Source: Ceratodon purpureus (Eukaryota > Streptophyta > Bryopsida > Pseudoditrichales > Ditrichaceae). From it: a stretch of DNA of 64,000 nt. Of this stretch, positions 23,893 through 58,937 are shown in pieces. The notes beneath the pieces were generated by a model. That model ran no database searches, had not been told where the DNA came from, and saw nothing but the letters and a program-made list of their open reading frames with translations. The translations under genes were made by a program, and so were the position numbers. The first letter of the stretch is position 1. Each line of letters begins with the position of its first letter. The DNA lies in NCBI GenBank assembly GCA_014871385.1, contig CM026423.1:8320803-8384802 (forward strand). The letters are read 5' to 3'.

Positions 23893-26800
23893 CTACGAAC
23901 CTCTCTGGCTTTCTGGTACCCACATGCCTGGACCTCTACCAGTCTGTTCCAACCTGGAGATAAAAAAACCTCGAGTCAATGGCTGTAAAAACAACTGCAG
24001 ACTAGAACTTTTAAGAAAAACATGCAGATGACAGCAATTCCATTATCAAATCAACCTAATAATTCGAGGATGGTTTTACAGCACATACGTTGGTGCTAGC
24101 CGGCCGAGTCCTTTGAGTTCGATTCCTGTAGTTTCTTCCGTAAGACGACCATCAATATCCACATTATATGCTTTCCCGGGAGTGCCTGGTAAACCACGCT
24201 TCTTCAGCAGCTCCAAGTCCTTGTGATGCAGTTCTCTCCCGTTTACAAGCACTCCGGTTTTGCCATGGGAGCAGTGTCGAGCCAATGGAAAGTTTAATTC
24301 CTCAATGAAGGGCTGCACAAAATAGCTCATCTTATGAAAATCCTGGTGACTCATGCCAACATTTAATAGAATTGTAGTACTACCAGATTGATGTTAGCAA
24401 CTTATTGAAAAGGTTAGATCTCTACTTACCGGGATCATCCCCAGACAAGGTCCACCCATGACCCCCCAAAACCCAGCTCGAAAGTCGTACCTACAGATCC
24501 ACCAGAGCATAGATCTCAGCTCGTCTAATATCACAATACGAAATTTGTTTCTCATAAGCCAGAAATTCTAGAATGCAGCAGGTACGATAATGAAATTGAA
24601 AGAGAGAAGCTGTTAAGTTGCAAGAAACGCCTATAACCAGACAAAAATATCCATAAGAAATCACCTGAATTCCCAGTCACCACAAAAGATTCACGGCAGG
24701 AACTTACCAATAAGTACCAGGATGTATGGCTCCGGCAAATTCCTCCGCTCTTTTCACTACATCATCAGGAACAGCATGACCATTCACAACCACTTTGCGA
24801 CGGTACTGAGTAGACTTCTTGCCCTTCGTCAATTCTTTAACACTTTTCTTGAGAAAACCTTTGAGGCCTTTGAACTCATGCCCGTCGTCGAACTCAGGGG
24901 TTTCAGGGGCAGACCATGCCGTCATTCGAGCAGGATTAAAACCAGTTGGTCCTATTTTCAGTTGAGCCGTAGGCTTTTCTTCTTCAGAATCACTGCTGGA
25001 TTGCAAAAGTTTGCGATCAGGTGAAGTCTTCTGCTGGCGATCTTTCGTACTGATATCCTGACTTGTGCTGGACAACGCAGGCGAGAGTGAAGCATGAGGT
25101 GGTTCAGCTTGACCTGATGGAGATGTCAATATGTCAAGATTCTCCTTGCCCCCTTGAGATGAGCTCCCAACCGGGCCCAAGTCTCCTGAGGTGTTTGGGG
25201 TTGAGGCTTTAGAGGTTTCGGACGGAAGGCTTGAACCTGAAACCATATTCGCCAACTTGGACCCAGAAGCAGCACGCGGGTTATGTCGCGCAGAAGGAGG
25301 CACAGGAAGATTAGCACCTGACTGAGTCCGGAGTACTACTCTGTCCTGAGAACCAGTTTCTCGATTGGACCTCGTACCTGAATATCTGCCAGAGGTACCA
25401 TCAGAGCTATTGGAACCAAGCCGGAAAGATGATTCTGGTGAATTGTCACTTCCACCTGGAGAAGGGCTTCTAGAAGGTGATAGTAGGTGATTCAAGCGAA
25501 ACCGAGATATCTTCCAGCAAGAACCGCAGCGAAGTTTTTGTACTCCTGTCTCGCTCCGAGGAAGATTCAGCGGAACCTCCAGCTGCAAACTACAATGACG
25601 ACACCTAACGTGGATACGTTCAGGTACAGGGGTATTGATTTGCAACCTGACTTTCTGCGTCTGCCCCTTCAACAAAGAATAAGCCGACCCACGCCCGTCT
25701 CCACCTAGACCAAAAGAAAAACTGTTCAATTCAAGGGTATCTGACTCCTGAGTGAAATCTTCCTGCAGCTCTTGCTTGCGTTGATCAGATACTTGTGCTT
25801 GAGATGGACTTACACCATGAATGGAATCAGGAGAACGGTGTGGAGAGAAATGGGGAGAAGCAACAGATTTGACAGGGCCAAAGGAACCAATGACCTCCAA
25901 CTGATCTTTAGACCTCGAATTTGGCGATTTCCTATCTGCAGGATCTTGCTCAGCTTCATCATCAGACCTCTCATTATTACCGTCTATCGTGTCTCCCTGG
26001 ACTCCTTGTCCATTGCGCGAAAAGGTGGGTGATTTCAGCTCTTCAGAGTGCGGTTTTGAAACAATCTGATACGACGAGTCAGCATCATCCACATTGGACG
26101 AGTCGTCACTAGTATCATAGTCCAAAACGTCGGGAAGGCCAGGAAAATTTTGTAGATTCGAAGGAGCATCTAAGTCCTGACGTGAATCAGTTTGTGCCTT
26201 CGATGACTGCTCGAGCTGTGGCTGAACACCTCCAAACGCCGACTTGGACGGAATAAAACTAGGTGGGGACAGCATATTGCGAGGTGGTGATAAGGATTTT
26301 CTGGTAGTTTGTGGCGACTGGGAAGGAGACACTTCTTCGTTATCCGATAATGATCTAGGTTCCTCTTCATCGTCGAAACTCCCCTTGTCGACAACTGGTT
26401 TCCCTTTGTACCGCACCTTCATATCCGGCTCCTTTTGCTGCCTTCGCCTAACCGAAGTAGAGTCACTTGTAGGTGACAAAACCGGCTCTGGCGTATTTGC
26501 CTTTGGAGGTGACACACTGCTTATCTCGTTCAGCCGTCTAGCAACGTCCGATGATGAGGCCCTTGCAATTGATTTCTGCTCTTGAATGACTTCCACTCGA
26601 GCACTCAAAGGATCGTCTCTGCTCTTCATTTTATCCGCTGTTGCCTCCACTAAAGGTAAAATTCTCTTTTCATTCTCTAATGCAGGGTGTCTGGAAATGG
26701 GTTCCTTGGGGAACTTACTTAACTCCTTAGCATCATCTTCTACGCTCCCTCTCGCGACAGCAGGGAGAGCAGGATTACGATCATTCCCAACAGACCAACC

Positions 26801-28181
26801 ACTGATGGCTACACCATCTGAGCGCTGTCGCCGATGTACACCAAGCTTCTCCTCCCTAGATCTGCCAGTGGATGGGCCGGCCTCCACTGCATCACGTCGA
26901 CGACCGTCAAGGTTTCGTTCAAACATAGAATCGGGATTCCTAGTCCCTATATATTCATCTCCTTGGGATTTATTCCTACCCCTCATAAATGTTCCCTGTG
27001 AACTTAGTCCCAGTCCCGGTGTTTGTCTCTCTTTAACCTTATAAAGTGGACCAGCATTCTGTAAATGCAGTGCAGCAAGAGCTTTTGTTGGTGAAAATGG
27101 TGTCTGATCGTCGTTGTCTTCAGATTTCCACTGACGCTCTTTCTCTCTACTGGTTGATCCCAGAATGGGCAAGTCTGTAGGTGGTCGTCTGTAGCGAGGT
27201 GCCTCAGCGGCCGGATCAACAGGTGGCGACTTCTGACGAGTATTAGCGCTCGCATTGATGGGCATGTTTCTTGTTCGCATATCTGCAATTCCCTCCTTTC
27301 CTCCCGTTGTATCATATTTAGCTGCTGGGTTCCTGATCTGATCAACTGGAGGGGAGGGGAGTTTGTGAAGCACGTAATTTGGCAATTTGTTACTGGCTTG
27401 GACTTCTTCAATATGTGCTGGACTAGAAGCCTTAGTTTGTGGCATAGATGTCGGTCCCTCTCTCCCACGACGGGAATCCTCGTCACCACTACCATGAGCT
27501 GCCAAAGAGTCACGGGGTGAAAGTCTGTGGTGATCGCGCCCAGGTCTGAGACCGTTGTCGTCATTTGTATTCGAGCTATGTGGCACCTGTAGAGGGGGTG
27601 AAGGTCCAGAAGGGAAACTACTGTGATGCGCTTGGGTTGGTAATTTTCTTCCTGTGTCCACTGGAGTGGGTCTGCTGTTTCCACTTCTATTAATCTGGTC
27701 ATCAGGATCACCTAAAGCTGTCTGCCTTGACGTATGGTCAGGTGGCATGGGTTTGGAGGGCAATCTTCTACTATCGATACTATCTGCATGACCAGGTGGA
27801 GTAGCTCTGTTTTGCTGTTGTACCCGGGCTGACGACCTTCTAGATGCATCAGCGCTCGCATGTTTTGCTGCAAAATCGTGAGAAACAGTGATGTACCATA
27901 CCACAACAATCATTACCAGAGTCTACACAGGAAAAAATGACATAGAATGAAAGAGAAAAGTGTTTGTTTTCTCAAATATATAAAGACTAGTTGGAGATTA
28001 CAAAGCGATCAGGTAACACGCTCATACATTGTTTCCAAAAAGTGTAAAACATACCTCTTAGGACAGTGGAACAATTCCCACATTTGTATAGAGGGGTTCC
28101 CGGAGGAGGCTCTTGCAGAAGTGCAAGGCACTTGGGACACCGAACAATCCGAGAAGGTCTATCCATTGTAGCCATCACCAA
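23893..28181 (-). CDS. EDR4-like protein with zinc ribbons (DUF3133 family)
   Basis: Five exons: 28055-28181, 24708-27867, 24430-24490, 24089-24312 and 23893-23953, 1210 aa in phase. The N-terminus has a CPKC...CGNC zinc ribbon (residues about 17-35) ending VLRAKH, as in EDR4 and relatives. A long disordered Ser/Pro-rich middle follows. Then comes a second zinc ribbon, VRCRHCSLQLEVP...KLRCGSCWK, the DUF3133 domain. The C-terminal block HPGTYWYDFRAGFWGVMGGP, then PFIEELNFPL, VNGRELHHKDLELL and LGRLAPT, is conserved in a plant subfamily often labelled 'extra-large G-protein-like'. The last exon was chosen because it reads GMWVPE in phase, like the end of relatives. Arabidopsis EDR4 is a defence and membrane-traffic regulator; function here is only inferred. 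Three ATGs (28181, 28175, 28166) could start translation. Confidence 0.9.
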
Positions 28182-39091: not shown

Positions 39092-41918
39092 ATGAAGTTC
39101 CTCGAGTACACGCCGCTCGCCCGGTACCCCATCCCTCATCCGCGCTCCTGATCATCTTGTTCATCCTCGTTGTCTGTCTGTTGGCTTTTTTTTTGGTCGT
39201 TCGGATGTTTGATTAGTGTTTGTTTTGCCGTTCTTTGGGGCGGCGATTGGGGTCGGAAGTGGGAGTGTTGATCTGATGAGTGCGTGTTTTTGGTGGTGAA
39301 ACCCTAACGGTGCAGAATAAACACGTTTCTGTCGCATGTCGATGTTGGAGGGTGCATGATTCAAGGCGTAATGGAGGCTTACTCTTGTAAGTTTTTGAAG
39401 ATTTCGGAAGTTTCTGGAAGTTTTTTGCGTTGAGGTTTGGATGGTGTTGGTGTTTGGGATGGGGAGGGTTTGTATGTCTGAGGGGATGGGTTTGGTTTGG
39501 TTGTTTACTTGTTGCAGTCTGCCAGGGTTTGTTCAGCTGGAATTTGGTGGGAGAGGGAGGAGGGTTGATGTTTTTGGTGTCTGGAAGTTTTTTTAATTCG
39601 GGGAAGTGGTTTTACAGGCAAGCTTGCAGGGGTTGATAAGAAGTTGTCACGGAGTTTGGAACAAGAGGTTGTGGATTCGTTGGCATACTCGCCGTTGGAC
39701 TTGTCTACTTCCCCTGTTGGACCGCTCTCAAACACTGCGAGGTATTTGTTTTTTCTTTCAGGTTATGAACTTTCGGGAAGTTTTATCCTGATTCGTCAAG
39801 CGGAGTATATCTTCAATTAAGCCATATCAGCTCTTCTAAATTTGCATATGGAATTTCGCATCTAGTAGCATTATACTTAGAATTTTTATTGTTCTGTCTT
39901 CGTGGCACTTATCCAGTAGTATGTGCTGCTACGATTCAGCTTTCACGATTCTATTTGCTGGAGCCTCGACTTGAGAGGAATTGTTAGCTGATTGTTGGGG
40001 GTGTTGTTGTGGAAGTAATTATAGTAGGGGAGAACACGAATCTTCTCTGACGTTTTGATCTCCGTCTCCATTGTATAGATTTTATACAACAGTTACTGTA
40101 GTACCTGCCTTTCTGGCTGGCATATGTAACTTTCGTTCGTTGTTTGATTTTCTTTGATCGTGGGAATACTCACCACTCTGTACATCTGTTCTCAGTCGCA
40201 GGACGTTGATATACCTGATTCTGACCTTGAATCATATGTATCCTGACTACGATTTCAGGTAATGGCATTCTTTAATGTTGGTATTTCTCTGTGCGCCTGG
40301 TAGAGTTCCCCTCTCTATGGTCATCGGAGGAATCCTTGCTATCTCAGGTTCTTGTGGGTTAGAATCGAGTCTAGATGAGGTTTACTTGGGTACTGCTTGT
40401 GTCTATAAGGCCGGCAACCCACTTTATTGAAAGGAATTAGGAAGTGGTGTCAATGGTTGACAAGCGGTATGAAGCCGTTGCTCCTGAAGGAGCTGAGAGT
40501 TCAAGTCTCTCCATTTCCTATTACTTCCTACATAGTTTGTTTAGCAAGTGTGATGACCAGTATGAACACACTGGGGAGAGATGAAAGTTGATTAATCTAA
40601 TGTTGTGATATGCTTATGTCCATATACTTACCAGTATGTTGCGACCTCACCACTTTACGAAAGAACATGGAGTTCTTGCTGCAAAGCAAAAGATTGACGT
40701 GTCATTGGTTGAGGCATCCAAGGTAGATAATTAACTTGACAGCTCATTTTATCAATCGTCTCGTTCCGACGTCTTGTTCATTCTGTTCTCTCACATATTT
40801 GGATAGTTAATCTGTTCGAAGTTTCCTGCCACTGATGAGTGGTTGCGCTAGATGATGGGACACCTAGCTATTACGCGGTGGATTTATTCTAATAGGGATT
40901 TAATAGCAGATCTGGTCTACTGAAGTTGGGGAGGAAACAACGTTGATGGACAGCATATGGAACGGCATTGATGAGGTCAGCAGAACACTTCTTGAAGGGT
41001 ACCTTTTGTGTTGTGACTCAAGAAATGGTGCTTGCAGTGTTTGTATTTGATGTCCAGTTTGATTGTACGATTTCGTGTAGATGGATTTCTCATAATTTGC
41101 TTTTAGGAATTGCTTGTCATCTTGGTTTTTCTGGTATTATATCCTGGAGTGTAACATGTTCACCGCTCAGCAGGTCATGAATCTGGAGGAATGTGAAGTG
41201 TACAGTTATTCCCCTGATGCTGAAGGAGATCCTTTTGCTGACACTGGCAGCATGTGAGTGCTAGAGCTTATTCATGTGGAGAAGTTGTAAAATAATTACA
41301 GGCTTTGGAATTCTGTTTTGAGTTATTTGATGCACATGATAATGGTGATAGATTTCAATTTACTATGGATATATTGGAGCATGGGATTTTTGCATGACCC
41401 TGCTGAAAGGGTTGAAGTGCAATGGGAACTATGTTTGGGATGCGGTCATACCAAGGCTACTACACCAGATCCCATCAGAACTCTGAAGTTAAGCGCCTTT
41501 GGGCCGGCATAGTACTGGGATGGGTAAAACCTCTTGGGAAGTCCCGGTGCTGCATCCAATTTAACTTCTTAATGTTGTATGCGTTTCTGTGCCCTTAGAT
41601 GGTCCTTTAATTATTTTTTCTACAACAAAAAGCAGAAGCGAGTGCTTTACTTCAGCTCCCGATGTGCGAGGTAAGCTTCTGTGATTTTGCACTGCATCGT
41701 CTGTTTCAAGTTGTTCTCAAATAATGTCTATGGAAACAGATGAATCAAATATTAGGATCAGGGTTTTTGTAGAGGTTGATTTTGAAGCTTTAGCCTGATG
41801 GCCTGAAGCTAATCGTGGTTTTGGTTGCAGCAAGCAATCCATGGACAGTTTCTCTAGTGACGATGGATCTGGCGAGTGGGACATGGATTTTGTGGATGGC
41901 ATGGACCTTGAAGGCTGA
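39092..41918 (+). CDS. MAF1: MAF1, repressor of RNA polymerase III
   Basis: Nine exons: 39092-39123, 39316-39386, 39618-39741, 40196-40258, 40635-40722, 40910-40975, 41174-41253, 41599-41670 and 41831-41918, 227 aa in phase, close to the usual plant MAF1 length. It begins MKFLEYTPLARINTFL and continues with MEAYSCK, RRTLIYLILTLNHMYPDYDF (the conserved A/B region), EVYSYSPDAEGDPF and IWSFNYFFYNKKQKRV (the C box), with an acidic tail. MAF1 binds Pol III and blocks transcription of tRNA and 5S genes under stress or poor growth; it is controlled mainly by phosphorylation in yeast, animals and plants. Intron 7 (41254-41598) contains a 5S rRNA-like sequence in sense orientation (separate entry). 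Confidence 0.95.
41410..41523 (+). promoter_or_regulatory. Candidate 5S-mimic cassette exon in MAF1 intron 7
   Basis: An acceptor (CTGAAAG, AG at 41408-41409) and a donor (ATGG/GTAAAA, GT at 41524-41525) would define a 114-nt exon. Joined to exon 7 it stays open until TAG at 41510-41512, so inclusion would introduce a premature stop and probably trigger nonsense-mediated decay. The donor sits in the apical loop of the 5S helix IV equivalent. Plant TFIIIA has a known 5S-derived exon of this kind that ribosomal protein L5 controls. Splicing here is predicted, not observed, and the acceptor tract is only moderate. Confidence 0.4.
41438..41557 (+). rRNA. 5S rRNA-like sequence within MAF1 intron 7
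   Basis: A 120-nt segment aligns end to end with plant 5S rRNA. GGATGC at 41438 pairs with GCATCC at 41552-41557 (helix I). ATCCCATCAGAACTC and AAGTTAAGCGCC (helix III strand and box A) and TAGTACTGGGATGGG (box C start) are nearly canonical. Box C then departs: the normal GGATGGGTGACC is GGATGGGTAAAACC, with an A-rich expansion. There is no T4 terminator just downstream and no TATA-like box near -28. I read it as a full-length but diverged 5S copy, probably not an expressed rRNA gene, kept as a structured element in the MAF1 transcript. Confidence 0.88.
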
Positions 41919-54257: not shown

Positions 54258-57200
54258 ATGGAAGAGGGCATTCGAAGGAATCCACCGGGGGAGGCTCGCA
54301 TCCTGTCTCGGAGAGCGAAATTACTCAGGCGGGAGTTGGCGTACGCGAGGCGGATGAGTTGGACGAAACTGCCATGTCCATGTCAAATCCACATGCGGGA
54401 GGCGGAACTCACTCTCGACTCATACCGGAGATGCCTGAGGGATAATGGAAGGCATGTGTGGTTCTATGGAAGGACAGAGGTATGTCTCATATTTTCCTTC
54501 GTGTGTTGATGTGGTGCTCATATGTAAGATTAACCACGACAACTCAGGAACTCGAATTCTGAAAATTCACTTAGAGCCTTCACCTTCCATGCACAGTAGA
54601 AGAACACAATACCGATTGGTTGATGCTATGAATTGGGATATCGCATGTCATGAAGCACCTCCTGCCTAACAGTCGAAGATGTTCTGTTGTACCAGGGATA
54701 CGAGGACGACGACTCCGACGTCGAGTGGGAGGACCACATTACGTGGTACTATGGAGCGCAGGCGAGAATGCGTCCAAACGCACTACGGCGGAGGGATTTA
54801 GACCCGGGGATTGATGTGACGCAGATGGTAGTCGAAGCTCATGATATCGTGGACAGAATTCATGAAGAGGTGATGGTGGACCAGGTTCATGCTGGAGAGC
54901 ATCCGAGAGGAGATCCGCACCAACAGAGATTTCCGAATGGAGTCAGCGACGACTTAGGGCAGGAGAACAGAGCATCACCCGTAGGAGCAGGTCGGGGTGG
55001 GGGGATTCCTAGTCCGGAGAGAAGCAGTGACTCGGCAATCCCCTTACGCGAGGAAGGTAATGCAGCAGGTGAAGACGGCCGTGACATCTCCGATGCACCG
55101 TCAGTCGACGTTTCTGATGATAGCTCTGGAGACGAGGGGGCGCACCAGTGGGGAGACTCTGACGACGAGACAGACGCTTCCATCGCGGCCCTAGAGGAGG
55201 CAGCGACTACTCCCTTGTTCCCAGGATCAGAATACTCTAGCATGGGAACGACGTATGTGCTTCTAAGTAGTGGAAAGCTGCACGGCTGTTCCGACGTCTA
55301 CCTGGATGAGCTATTCCGGACCTTAAGCACTACCATTCTTCCTAAGCCGAATACCTTACCCAAGACTTACAGAGAGGCATCCGAGTACTTGAGGAAGTTG
55401 GGCCACACTTACAAGTCAATCGACTCCTGCCCCAACAATTGTTGCCTGTATCGGAAGGACCTGAAGGACGCTCGTGTTTGTCCACATTGCAGGGCTCCGA
55501 GAAAAAGAAGAGCAGGGAGATCAGAAGTGCCGTTCAAGGTTACGAGGGCCTTCCCTCTTACTCCGCGACTCAAACGGATGTTTCGAAGTGCTCTTCAGGC
55601 AGCTGCAATGACATGGTGGGCGACCCTCGCAGTCACGGACGGTGTGATGTCTCATGTCTCTCACTCAGCGCAATGGAAGTGGATCTCGGAGAGATTTCAT
55701 GCAGAGTTTGGCCATGACGATAGAAACGTGCGAATGGCTCTTGTTACAGATGGATTCAACCCCCACGCAGACAAGAGGAGTACTTACTCTATATGGCCTA
55801 TTCTCCTCATGAACTACAACATTGCACCGTGGCTTACGACGAAGAATTATTTTATTATGTTGGGGATCCTAATCCCGGGTCCTAAATCCGTAACAGCTGA
55901 TTACTTCGATATCTATATGGAGCCACTGATTGAAGAACTCTTACATCTTTGGGAAGAAGGGGTGTACTGCATGGATGTCGCCCGTTATAAGGAGTCGTCT
56001 CATTTCATATTGAAGGCGATGATCATCTGGACAATTGGCGACTTCCCAGCCTACGGCGTTTTAGCTGGTTGCACAACCAATGGGTTCGTTGGCTGCCCAG
56101 TGTGCGGGGAGGGCTTTAGATCACGGCGTTCTAAGGTTTTACACAAGAACGTCTTCTGTGGATGTGCCCGCAGGTTCCTTGTTAGGGCAGACCATCCCTT
56201 CAGGGGCGACAGTTCAAACTTCATAGATGAGGAGCACCGAGTGGCCCCTACTCCCGTTACCGGAAGTGAAGCATTGCAGAGGGGAGAGGAGCGTGTCAGG
56301 TGGCTTAGAGAGTATGGAAGACCGAAGGAAAATGACCCCGTCAGAAGGCACGGCATCAAGCGAGTTTCCTCACTATATAGGCTTCCTTACTGGAAGGTAA
56401 GAGTGCCACTGAGCCGCCCCTGATCCTTGTTTACAGTCTGCACATGTTGTCTTCGACGTCTCGATATTGTGTGGCTCCAGTGGCTTCATGTCATGATCAC
56501 TTGGGACTCTATGTCTAGACGTCGGGGTGATGTAGCTGTCTTAACATATGTCATTGAAGTTTAGCCCAGCCTTTTTTTTCGGTGTCGATAAACTTGCTGG
56601 TGAATGGGGTTCGAACTACCAGGCTCTGTCCACCGGGACTTCTAACCATTCATTTAGCGTATGTTGTTCTCTTAGATAGCGTATAATGACTGCTGGAATT
56701 GGATTATATGATCATGCTGTTCGACGACATGAATTGCACATGTCGATGCTCACCTGCGCATGATCTGGTACTGTGTGACCAGATGAATATGTAGCAGACT
56801 ATGTTTCTCGGTGCAATGGTCAGTCGTGCTTGCTGATCCCCCATTCTTATATTTTCAGCTGAAGTCTCACAACTTTCTTCATGGTGCTGTGAATAGGAAC
56901 TTCCAGTTAGGCACACACTCGACGTCATGCATGTGGAAAAGAATATAGCGGTTACAATTACTGGATTTTTACTCGGTGAAGAAGACACGATAGCCGTGCG
57001 AAAGGACCTACAGGATCAAGGGGTCATGCCTAGTCTGCATCTTGTGCGGGATGAGTTAACCGATAGCTACCTGATGCCGCAGGCACCCTACGTTCTTAGC
57101 CCCGGTGAGAAACGACGAGTCCTACAGACGATCAAGAATGTTCAAACACCGACTGGTCACTGTTCGAACTTGTCGAAGGTAGTTAACTTGGATAAAGGGA

Positions 57201-58937
57201 AGTTCCAGTTCATGAAAAGCCACGACTGGCATGTTGTTCTAGAGGAGGTGTTACCTGCCGCCTTGAGAGGGTCGCTCGCAGATGGACCTCGGGTAGCTGT
57301 TATTCGACTAGGGCACTGCTTCAAGAAGATTTGCGAGAAACAAGTAACCGTGAGTGAGCTCCCGAACTTATTGAACTACATTGCCGAAACTTGCTCTCTG
57401 CTGGAGATATACTTCCCACTGGCGTATTGGAATATAATGCCCCATCTCGTACTTCACTTGCCAAGGGAGCTTTACTGGTGCGGGCCCGTTCATGCCCGCT
57501 GGATGTATAGCGTGGAAAGGTACTTAGGTCACTTGAAGAGCCTCGTGCGTAATAAGGCCAGACCCGAAGGATCCATTGCCCAGGGTTATATGTATACGGA
57601 AGCCATCGGATTCGTCACAGAGCATTTCCAAATGTATCCAGGAGTTGCGAGACTACTCTGGGACATGGAAGAAGACGAACAGGACGCAGGGGAGGTGATG
57701 GAGGGGCAGGGTCGTGAGCAATTCTGGGACGACATTGAATTGAAGAAACTTCACGAACATGTTTTGCGTCACTGCGTCCACACGGAGGACCTCTATAGGT
57801 ATGCTACCCTCATGCGTACTGTTTGGGTCAGTGTCATCGCATTGGTGACTAAATAAAGAGTGCTCTAACTGTTATTAAAACGAGTACGTAGAGTACTGTT
57901 TAACTCTACAGCCGTTTCTGTTGCAGTATTTTCTCAGAGGAAAGAAGATCGCTTAGGGGTCGCAATCCAAGGAGACTCGTTCCATTCGCAGACTGGATCG
58001 AAGAGAGAGTGCGTCAAATGGGAATCGATGGTCATAACCCCTCTCCAGATCTGGTGACTATGTCCAGACTTCCGTCTCCGTACGTAAAGCATCATAACTC
58101 GATGTGGGCTTTCGGCTACCACTTCAGAACTGACGAAGAGGACGGGAAACAACACGTAACCTTCGACGCTGGAGTGGCAGCCATCATAAACCAAACCTGC
58201 CGTTCTTCAGTGTCGGATGTGAACCAAATTGAGTCGGAGCTCCTTTATGTAGGAATTATTAAGGACATACTGCGCGTTGACTACGGACATTTGAAGTTCA
58301 ACGTATTGAGGTGTTCATGGATCAAGCCTGATCTCGCAGGGGAGCCGACAATCAAAGTAGACCAAGACGGTTTTGGCTCGTAAAACACGCTGCTCGACAG
58401 AGTGCAGACGTCGAGCCGTATCTCATGGCCGCACATGCCCGTCAGGTCAGTTAATCGACGCAATTCCCTTTCATTCGTACAGTCTCCCAATGTTTGCATT
58501 CCGGTCTAAGCTGAACCTCTGAATTGCATCATGAGCATCGTATCACTTATCACAGTCGTCATTATGGACTACCCAATGCCGAACAGGTTTATTTTGTCGA
58601 TGATCCATACAATGAAGAATGGAAGGTTGTGAGGTACAAGGAGCCGAGATCACGGCGGGTCACTGATGGGCTACCAGACGCTTCTCTTAGCGCACCAGGT
58701 CGGACCACTGCCACCGAGCTTAACATTGCTAGAGGACAAGGCGAGGCTGCAGCTGAGCCTCAGAGGCAGCCAGTACTAGAGGCCGACGTGGTGCATGTCA
58801 TGGCACACGAAGAGGTCGACGAAGAAGCAGCTTACATGCAAACGGACCACATCCATTCCGATTCAGAGGACGACATCCCCAACGACGAGGCAGCAGTTCC
58901 AGTGATTCCCGTACCTAATGCGATTGACGATGCATAA
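54258..58937 (+). pseudogene. TNP2 CACTA transposase with one frameshift
   Basis: Exons 54258-54479, 54696-56396, 56897-57798, 57927-58445 and 58587-58937. Exon 1 has a CPC...H transposase-associated pattern (KLPCPCQIHMREAEL). Exon 2 has an acidic linker and then the Tnp2 core: LPKTYREASEYLRKLG, YKSIDSCPNNCCLYRKD, CPHCRAPRK, FPLTPRLKRMF, RMALVTDGFNPH, YSIWPILLMNYN, ILIPGPKS, IIWTIGDFPAYG. Exon 3 starts ELPVRHTLDVMHVEKNI and contains the DUF4218 region (HLPRELYWCGPVHARWMYSVERYLGHLK). Exons 4-5 resemble DUF4216 (RCSWIKP, VYFVDDPYNEEWKVV). Exon 4 reads into a stop at 58381; a one-base loss in a T run near 58371-58374 accounts for it, since total length is one short of a multiple of three. Catalysis of cut-and-paste excision is the family role. 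It could be an assembly error or a real inactivation. Confidence 0.85.

Follow-up and report, generated by a model that had tools for sequence, protein, structure and literature searches.

The MAF1 gene and the 5S-like sequence in its intron 7

A gene for MAF1, the RNA polymerase III (Pol III) repressor, was found on the forward strand of the window, the whole stretch of 64000 bases that was analysed. Splicing by hand gave nine exons (39092-41918) with every intron running from GT to AG and an open frame of 227 amino acids (aa). The predicted product matches the Pfam Maf1 family (PF09174; 197.1 bits) over residues 26-194, and the closest solved structure is 5u4z, annotated as 'Repressor of RNA polymerase III transcription' (E 1.6e-65). 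Two introns of the gene contain sequences that resemble Pol III products, and the features that bear on them are as follows, all on the forward strand.

39092-41918, forward: MAF1 gene, from the spliced frame, the Pfam Maf1 match and solved structures
40439-40520, forward: cloverleaf in MAF1 intron 4 that resembles a tRNA and has a variable arm (z -4.56; RF00005 score 26.3 bits, under the gathering threshold of 29)
41254-41598, forward: MAF1 intron 7, host of the 5S-like element, from the spliced frame (345 nt)
41380-41436, forward: imperfect but stable hairpin next to the upstream end of the 5S-like element (-18.8 kcal/mol, z -3.7)
41438-41557, forward (Rfam match to 41558): full-length 5S rRNA-like element (RF00001, 100.7 bits; 32 of 34 pairs standard)
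41460, forward: A to C at a highly conserved 5S loop B position that is A in Arabidopsis, from the Rfam and Arabidopsis alignments
41526-41528, forward: change in loop D (box C), a 2-nt insertion plus G to A, from the alignments, the exact placement depending on the aligner
41558-41598, forward: branch-point candidates TTAAC and TTAAT (-34 and -26) and the 3' splice site, directly after the element, by consensus match only
41599-41670, forward: MAF1 exon 8, from the spliced frame (72 nt)

The sequence-only reading of this DNA had reported a full-length 5S-like sequence, in the sense orientation, in MAF1 intron 7, and had proposed that the Rfam 5S model be run on it. When all 64000 bases were searched with cmscan, RF00001 was matched at 41438-41558 on the forward strand from position 1 to position 120 of its 120 positions (100.7 bits against a cut-off of 38 bits; E 7.6e-21), and this was the sole match at the gathering threshold in the whole window. 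A chance match to the 5S model is ruled out by this score, and the element agrees with the family in sequence and structure across the full model. The host assignment was likewise borne out by the spliced frame and the Pfam match. The element is in the same orientation as MAF1 and ends 41 nt upstream of the 3' splice site of intron 7 and exon 8.

Without the element, intron 7 would be 225 nt long, and the other MAF1 introns are between 160 and 454 nt. Reading the sequence through a retained intron 7 leads to a stop after 175 aa. As exon 8 is 72 nt long, the frame is preserved if it is skipped, and 24 residues, about 20 of them within the Pfam Maf1 match, are then removed. A 19-nt inverted repeat (89%) was also seen in the gene, with one arm in exon 5 (40666-40684) and the other at the boundary of intron 8 and exon 9 (41825-41843).

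Sequence, fold and splice-site context of the element

The element was compared with the 5S rRNA of Arabidopsis, the reference sequence for which was taken from PMC7412053. Standard pairing was found at 32 of the 34 consensus pairs in the Rfam alignment, and the two non-standard pairs (U41458/C41494 and C41508/C41543) are non-standard in Arabidopsis 5S as well. Five of 41 highly conserved consensus positions differ in the element; two of these differences are common to Arabidopsis and a third is an alignment shift where the Arabidopsis sequence has the same length, leaving the A to C change in loop B (41460) and the G to A change in loop D, beside two inserted bases. The clearest element-specific changes, as judged from these alignments, are thus few and all in loops.

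Between the element and Arabidopsis 5S, 25 of 119 aligned columns differ. Six of the 33 pairs compared have changed on both sides yet are still paired, and two have changed on one side. As the parental 5S of the species itself is missing from this comparison, the paired changes may predate the copying, and they are therefore no evidence of selection on the element.

Several further statements of the sequence-only reading, that helix I and the box A region are kept, that box C is altered and that a T-run terminator is missing, all held. All nine pairs of helix I are present, and the stretch that we take to be box A is intact. The stretch that we take to be box C carries the 2-nt insertion and the G to A change in loop D (41526-41528), and the first run of at least four T starts 57 nt downstream of the element, inside exon 8. 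No TATA-like motif was seen by eye in the 45 nt upstream of the element. The change in loop D and box C and the missing T-run terminator disfavour a functional 5S rRNA gene, and the element does not look like a working one.

The ability of the element to take the 5S fold was examined with the element alone and in context. For the element alone, the mean pair probabilities of helices I-III were 0.70, 0.74 and 0.81, and those of helices V and IV were 0.06 and 0.07, respectively. The probability for helix I was 0.60 with 20-nt flanks on each side and 0.05 in the whole intron, where forcing 23 of the 5S pairs cost 4.7 kcal/mol of ensemble energy. However, Arabidopsis 5S, which gave 0.90, 0.80, 0.79, 0.14 and 0.08 for helices I, II, III, V and IV on its own, gave 0.00, 0.17, 0.17, 0.00 and 0.02 when placed in intron 7. 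A functional 5S rRNA thus folds as badly in this intron, indicating that in-context folding does not discriminate, and poor folding in the intron was dropped as an argument against function. The fold of the element was not more stable than those of shuffled sequences (29 of 200 and 41 of 300 shuffles were as stable), and a 5S fold of the intron RNA is predicted here only as pairing potential.

The hairpin directly upstream of the element was lower in energy than all 300 shuffles of its sequence, but 34 of 1579 windows were as low.

Since the branch-point candidates at -34 and -26 adjoin the end of the element, binding of a protein to the element could keep the intron 7 3' splice site from being used. 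Masking of this site by the 5S sequence itself found no clear support, accessibility of the 3' splice site being equal or lower with 125 of 150 shuffled elements. The branch region was slightly less open with the element, and five of 150 shuffles were as low. Crude scoring gave at most 5 of 9 for donor-like sites after 41500, inside the element or beyond it, and 5-8 for the eight true donors. The pyrimidine tracts of two upstream AGs scored 0.60 and 0.53, within the range of the true acceptors (0.40-0.80). The upstream AG at 41409 lies within the true acceptor range. The loop D change creates one donor-like site, TGG/GTAAAA at 41524, which at 5 of 9 matches the lowest-scoring of the eight true donors; Arabidopsis 5S has TGG/GTGACC at this place. 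Taken together, these scores speak neither for nor against inclusion of the element as a cassette exon.

The tRNA-like fold in intron 4 and comparable systems

The genetic context of the element includes a second structured sequence, in intron 4. When a 161-nt stretch was searched alone, RF00005 aligned over its full length to 40439-40520 (26.3 bits, E 0.00083), below its gathering threshold. None of 300 shuffles was as stable as this fold, and only two of 1579 windows of the same length between 30000 and 60000, neither of which overlaps the cloverleaf, fold as well. No tRNA was called here by ARAGORN, and an Rfam scan of 3501 bases, with E values up to 1 listed, did not include the tRNA match. 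The other strand of the same 161-nt stretch matched RF04351, a plastid 3'UTR family, with 25.5 bits, which is below the cut-off of that family. By its fold, the predicted intron 4 structure resembles a class II tRNA.

In a coarser scan over MAF1 (546 windows, 60 shuffles each), windows that cut the intron 4 cloverleaf ranked lower, with a best z of -2.91. The lowest fold z in that scan (-3.72) was recorded for 41694-41753 on the forward strand, in intron 8.

The intron 4 fold is a possible counterpart of CPIR-1 of angiosperms, the original report of which (Akkuratov et al. 2014) is said to have included moss. CPIR-1 is described in PMC12218528 (2025) as a tRNA-like element located ~10 nt downstream of a 'MAF1 motif' that occurs in MAF1 introns of 105 Magnoliophyta species. 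Like CPIR-1 and the MAF1 motif, the sequences described here are putative structured RNAs that resemble Pol III products in MAF1 introns, and a tRNA-like fold is present in one of them, as judged from a sub-threshold RF00005 match. Unlike the arrangement described for angiosperms, no stable hairpin is found just upstream of the intron 4 fold, where three stretches in 40345-40431 gave z values from 0.12 to 0.54, and thus none ~10 nt upstream. The intron 7 element differs from CPIR-1 in that the latter is described as tRNA-like, not 5S-like. Table 1 of PMC12218528 gives the MAF1 motif for Magnoliophyta only, with another motif reported from Bryophyta, and the passages on MAF1 in that paper mention no 5S element.

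The claim of the sequence-only reading that no such arrangement had been described for MAF1 stands for 5S among the literature matches listed, none of which points to a 5S element in MAF1; this does not establish its absence from print. It does not stand for structured intronic RNA in general, which is already in print for MAF1 (PMC12218528). In a text search of the literature, the bryophyte-like 5S strings that were tried were not found, and angiosperm 5S strings were, in 12 papers.

P5SM, the plant 5S rRNA mimic in the TFIIIA pre-mRNA, was reportedly described in 2009 by Hammond et al. and by Fu et al. The sequence-only reading had pointed to a 5S-derived exon of plant TFIIIA with splicing under the control of L5, and this precedent is in print: L5 bound to the mimic triggers exon skipping in TFIIIA (PMC5972288), and binding of L5 to the 5S mimic of the engineered HyP5SM cassette also leads to exon skipping (PMC4538838). 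As in P5SM as described there, the host gene controls 5S synthesis and its pre-mRNA includes a 5S-like, pairing-competent sequence; the 5S fold is not favoured in the intron context. The two differ in that P5SM is in an exon of TFIIIA whereas the MAF1 element is, by the spliced frame, in an intron, and in that P5SM is hosted by an activator whereas MAF1 is a repressor. The MAF1 copy is also a nearly intact 5S, and it is known from its sequence alone.

Pol III-type elements in introns of genes for the Pol III machinery have a precedent in the MIR in intron 1 of mammalian Polr3e, which is antisense, has Pol III bound to it and exerts its effect through transcriptional interference (PMC5358760). 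The MAF1 element, in contrast, is in the sense orientation and has a changed box C. As described, 5S-related SINEs and Cassandra are similar in that they place 5S-derived sequence away from rDNA. However, the MAF1 element consists of the 120-nt 5S unit only, and neither a repeat of at least 18 nt nor a target-site duplication was found with it.

Origin and possible function of the 5S-like element

The ends of the element coincide with the ends of the 5S model (positions 1 and 120). A target-site duplication was looked for and not found; near-flush exact repeats do not exceed 3 nt, and similarity of the flanks was at chance level (2404 of 3000 random places were equal or better). No repeat of at least 18 nt touches the element and it has no tail. 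An origin from a SINE or an LTR element is disfavoured by the missing flanking repeats and target-site duplication. A retroelement or retropseudogene derived from 5S would be marked by a tail, an element frame or a target-site duplication, none of which was found, as would be the case for old or repair-made insertions too.

Sequence collections were also searched. Plant 5S patterns of 31, 27 and 18 bases had no match in the viral contigs, and the 27-base pattern had none in a collection of genome contigs that holds no plant genomes. Patterns of 16 bases matched 12 viral and 37 genome stretches, and as the longest alignment of these to the element was only 31 bases, the matches were taken as chance. 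The MAF1 protein had no relative in the viral contigs.

The reading that we tentatively favour, with a chance of being right that we put at just under even, is that the MAF1 pre-mRNA carries the element as a mimic of 5S rRNA, through which the supply of 5S sets MAF1 output by splicing. It is favoured by the precedents of TFIIIA and CPIR-1, by the tRNA-like fold in intron 4, by the full-length ends and sense orientation of the element and by the loss of its Pol III features. The kept stem pairs, with the changes apparently confined to loops, count for a mimic, as does the missing target-site duplication or repeat frame, and the loss of box C and of the terminator is what an RNA mimic would allow. 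Against it count the closeness of the element to functional 5S, which suggests a young insertion, the shuffle-level stability of the fold and the listing of the MAF1 motif for Magnoliophyta only in Table 1 of PMC12218528.

A dispersed 5S pseudogene, in which reverse transcription, or the use of filler DNA during break repair, brought a copy of a 5S RNA or gene into intron 7, where it is spliced out without effect and has only a coincidental link to MAF1, is a serious possibility that we hold to be somewhat doubtful. It was weighed about equally with the regulatory mimic, and these weights are a matter of judgement and not of computation. In every bryophyte species that had been investigated by 2019, the 5S genes were located within the 35S rDNA repeat (PMC6739443), and a lone copy in MAF1 would therefore be out of place. 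The changes in loops B and D would probably be harmful to a ribosomal 5S, the remainder of intron 7 is within the length range of the other introns, and closeness to functional 5S fits a recent copy. However, a pseudogene accounts less well for ends that lie exactly at positions 1 and 120 with neither duplication nor tail, for the sense orientation and kept stems, and for a host gene that encodes the Pol III repressor and contains a tRNA-like fold as well, though no point among these is decisive against it. Chance insertion of a 5S sequence in MAF1 is improbable, and so is the emergence of a new mimic.

It is very unlikely that the element is a Pol III-transcribed unit interfering with Pol II transcription of MAF1 in the manner of the Polr3e MIR, for, despite the intact box A region and the precedent of Polr3e, where a Pol III unit lies within an intron of a gene for a Pol III subunit, box C is changed, no run of at least four T occurs within 56 nt, no TATA-like motif was seen by eye in the preceding 45 nt, and a sense-oriented MIR, the orientation of the MAF1 element, had no measurable effect on the reporter in that study (PMC5358760). 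Equally improbable is a trans-acting 5S variant released from the intron by splicing, which might serve as a decoy for L5 or TFIIIA. Pairing is kept in the element, but intron lariats are usually degraded and a stable product is hypothetical. The authors of PMC12218528 raised a role in trans for those structured intronic RNAs, including the MAF1 motif, for which no effect on splicing is known.

If the element is a 5S mimic that sets MAF1 splicing, the loop could run as follows. The intron RNA would be able to take the 5S fold, as its pairing potential allows. When 5S is short, a 5S-binding protein left free in excess, most likely L5 by analogy with TFIIIA, would bind the mimic. From the logic of L5-dependent exon skipping in TFIIIA, free L5 should then lower MAF1. 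The bound RNA, which lies directly against the branch-point candidates, would make the intron 7 3' splice site harder to use, and either retention of intron 7 (a stop after 175 aa) or skipping of exon 8 (24 residues fewer) would result in less functional MAF1. Pol III would then be derepressed, as expected from the known role of MAF1, and 5S would rise. The outcome would be a second 5S feedback loop beside that of TFIIIA, on a transcript shared with the tRNA-like fold of intron 4.

Between them, the 5S-like element in intron 7 and the tRNA-like fold in intron 4 give the MAF1 pre-mRNA a look-alike of each of the two main Pol III products, and the intron 4 fold favours the feedback reading. A wider proposal, which we consider rather unlikely, is that this pre-mRNA is a two-input sensor of Pol III output, in which proteins that bind tRNA or 5S would act on splicing through mimics of tRNA (intron 4) and of 5S (intron 7) and would thereby adjust how much Pol III repressor is made, as direct feedback from the products. 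If so, Pol III repression in a plant would be wired directly to its two main products via mimics in a single pre-mRNA, the 5S mimic of TFIIIA would gain a partner of opposite sign, and a job would be suggested for the tRNA-like element in MAF1 introns of angiosperms, which was reported without a known function. Should the 5S copy prove to be a pseudogene, MAF1 would still contain a candidate structured RNA in the tRNA-like fold of intron 4.

Elsewhere in the window, plant DNA transposon sequence was found at 54687-57856 on the forward strand, with Transposase_21 (tnp2) in the frame at 54687-56423 and DUF4218 in that at 56927-57856. A 1069-aa open frame on the reverse strand (24704-27913) has a sub-threshold match to the EDR4 zinc ribbon (24.2 bits against a cut-off of 27).
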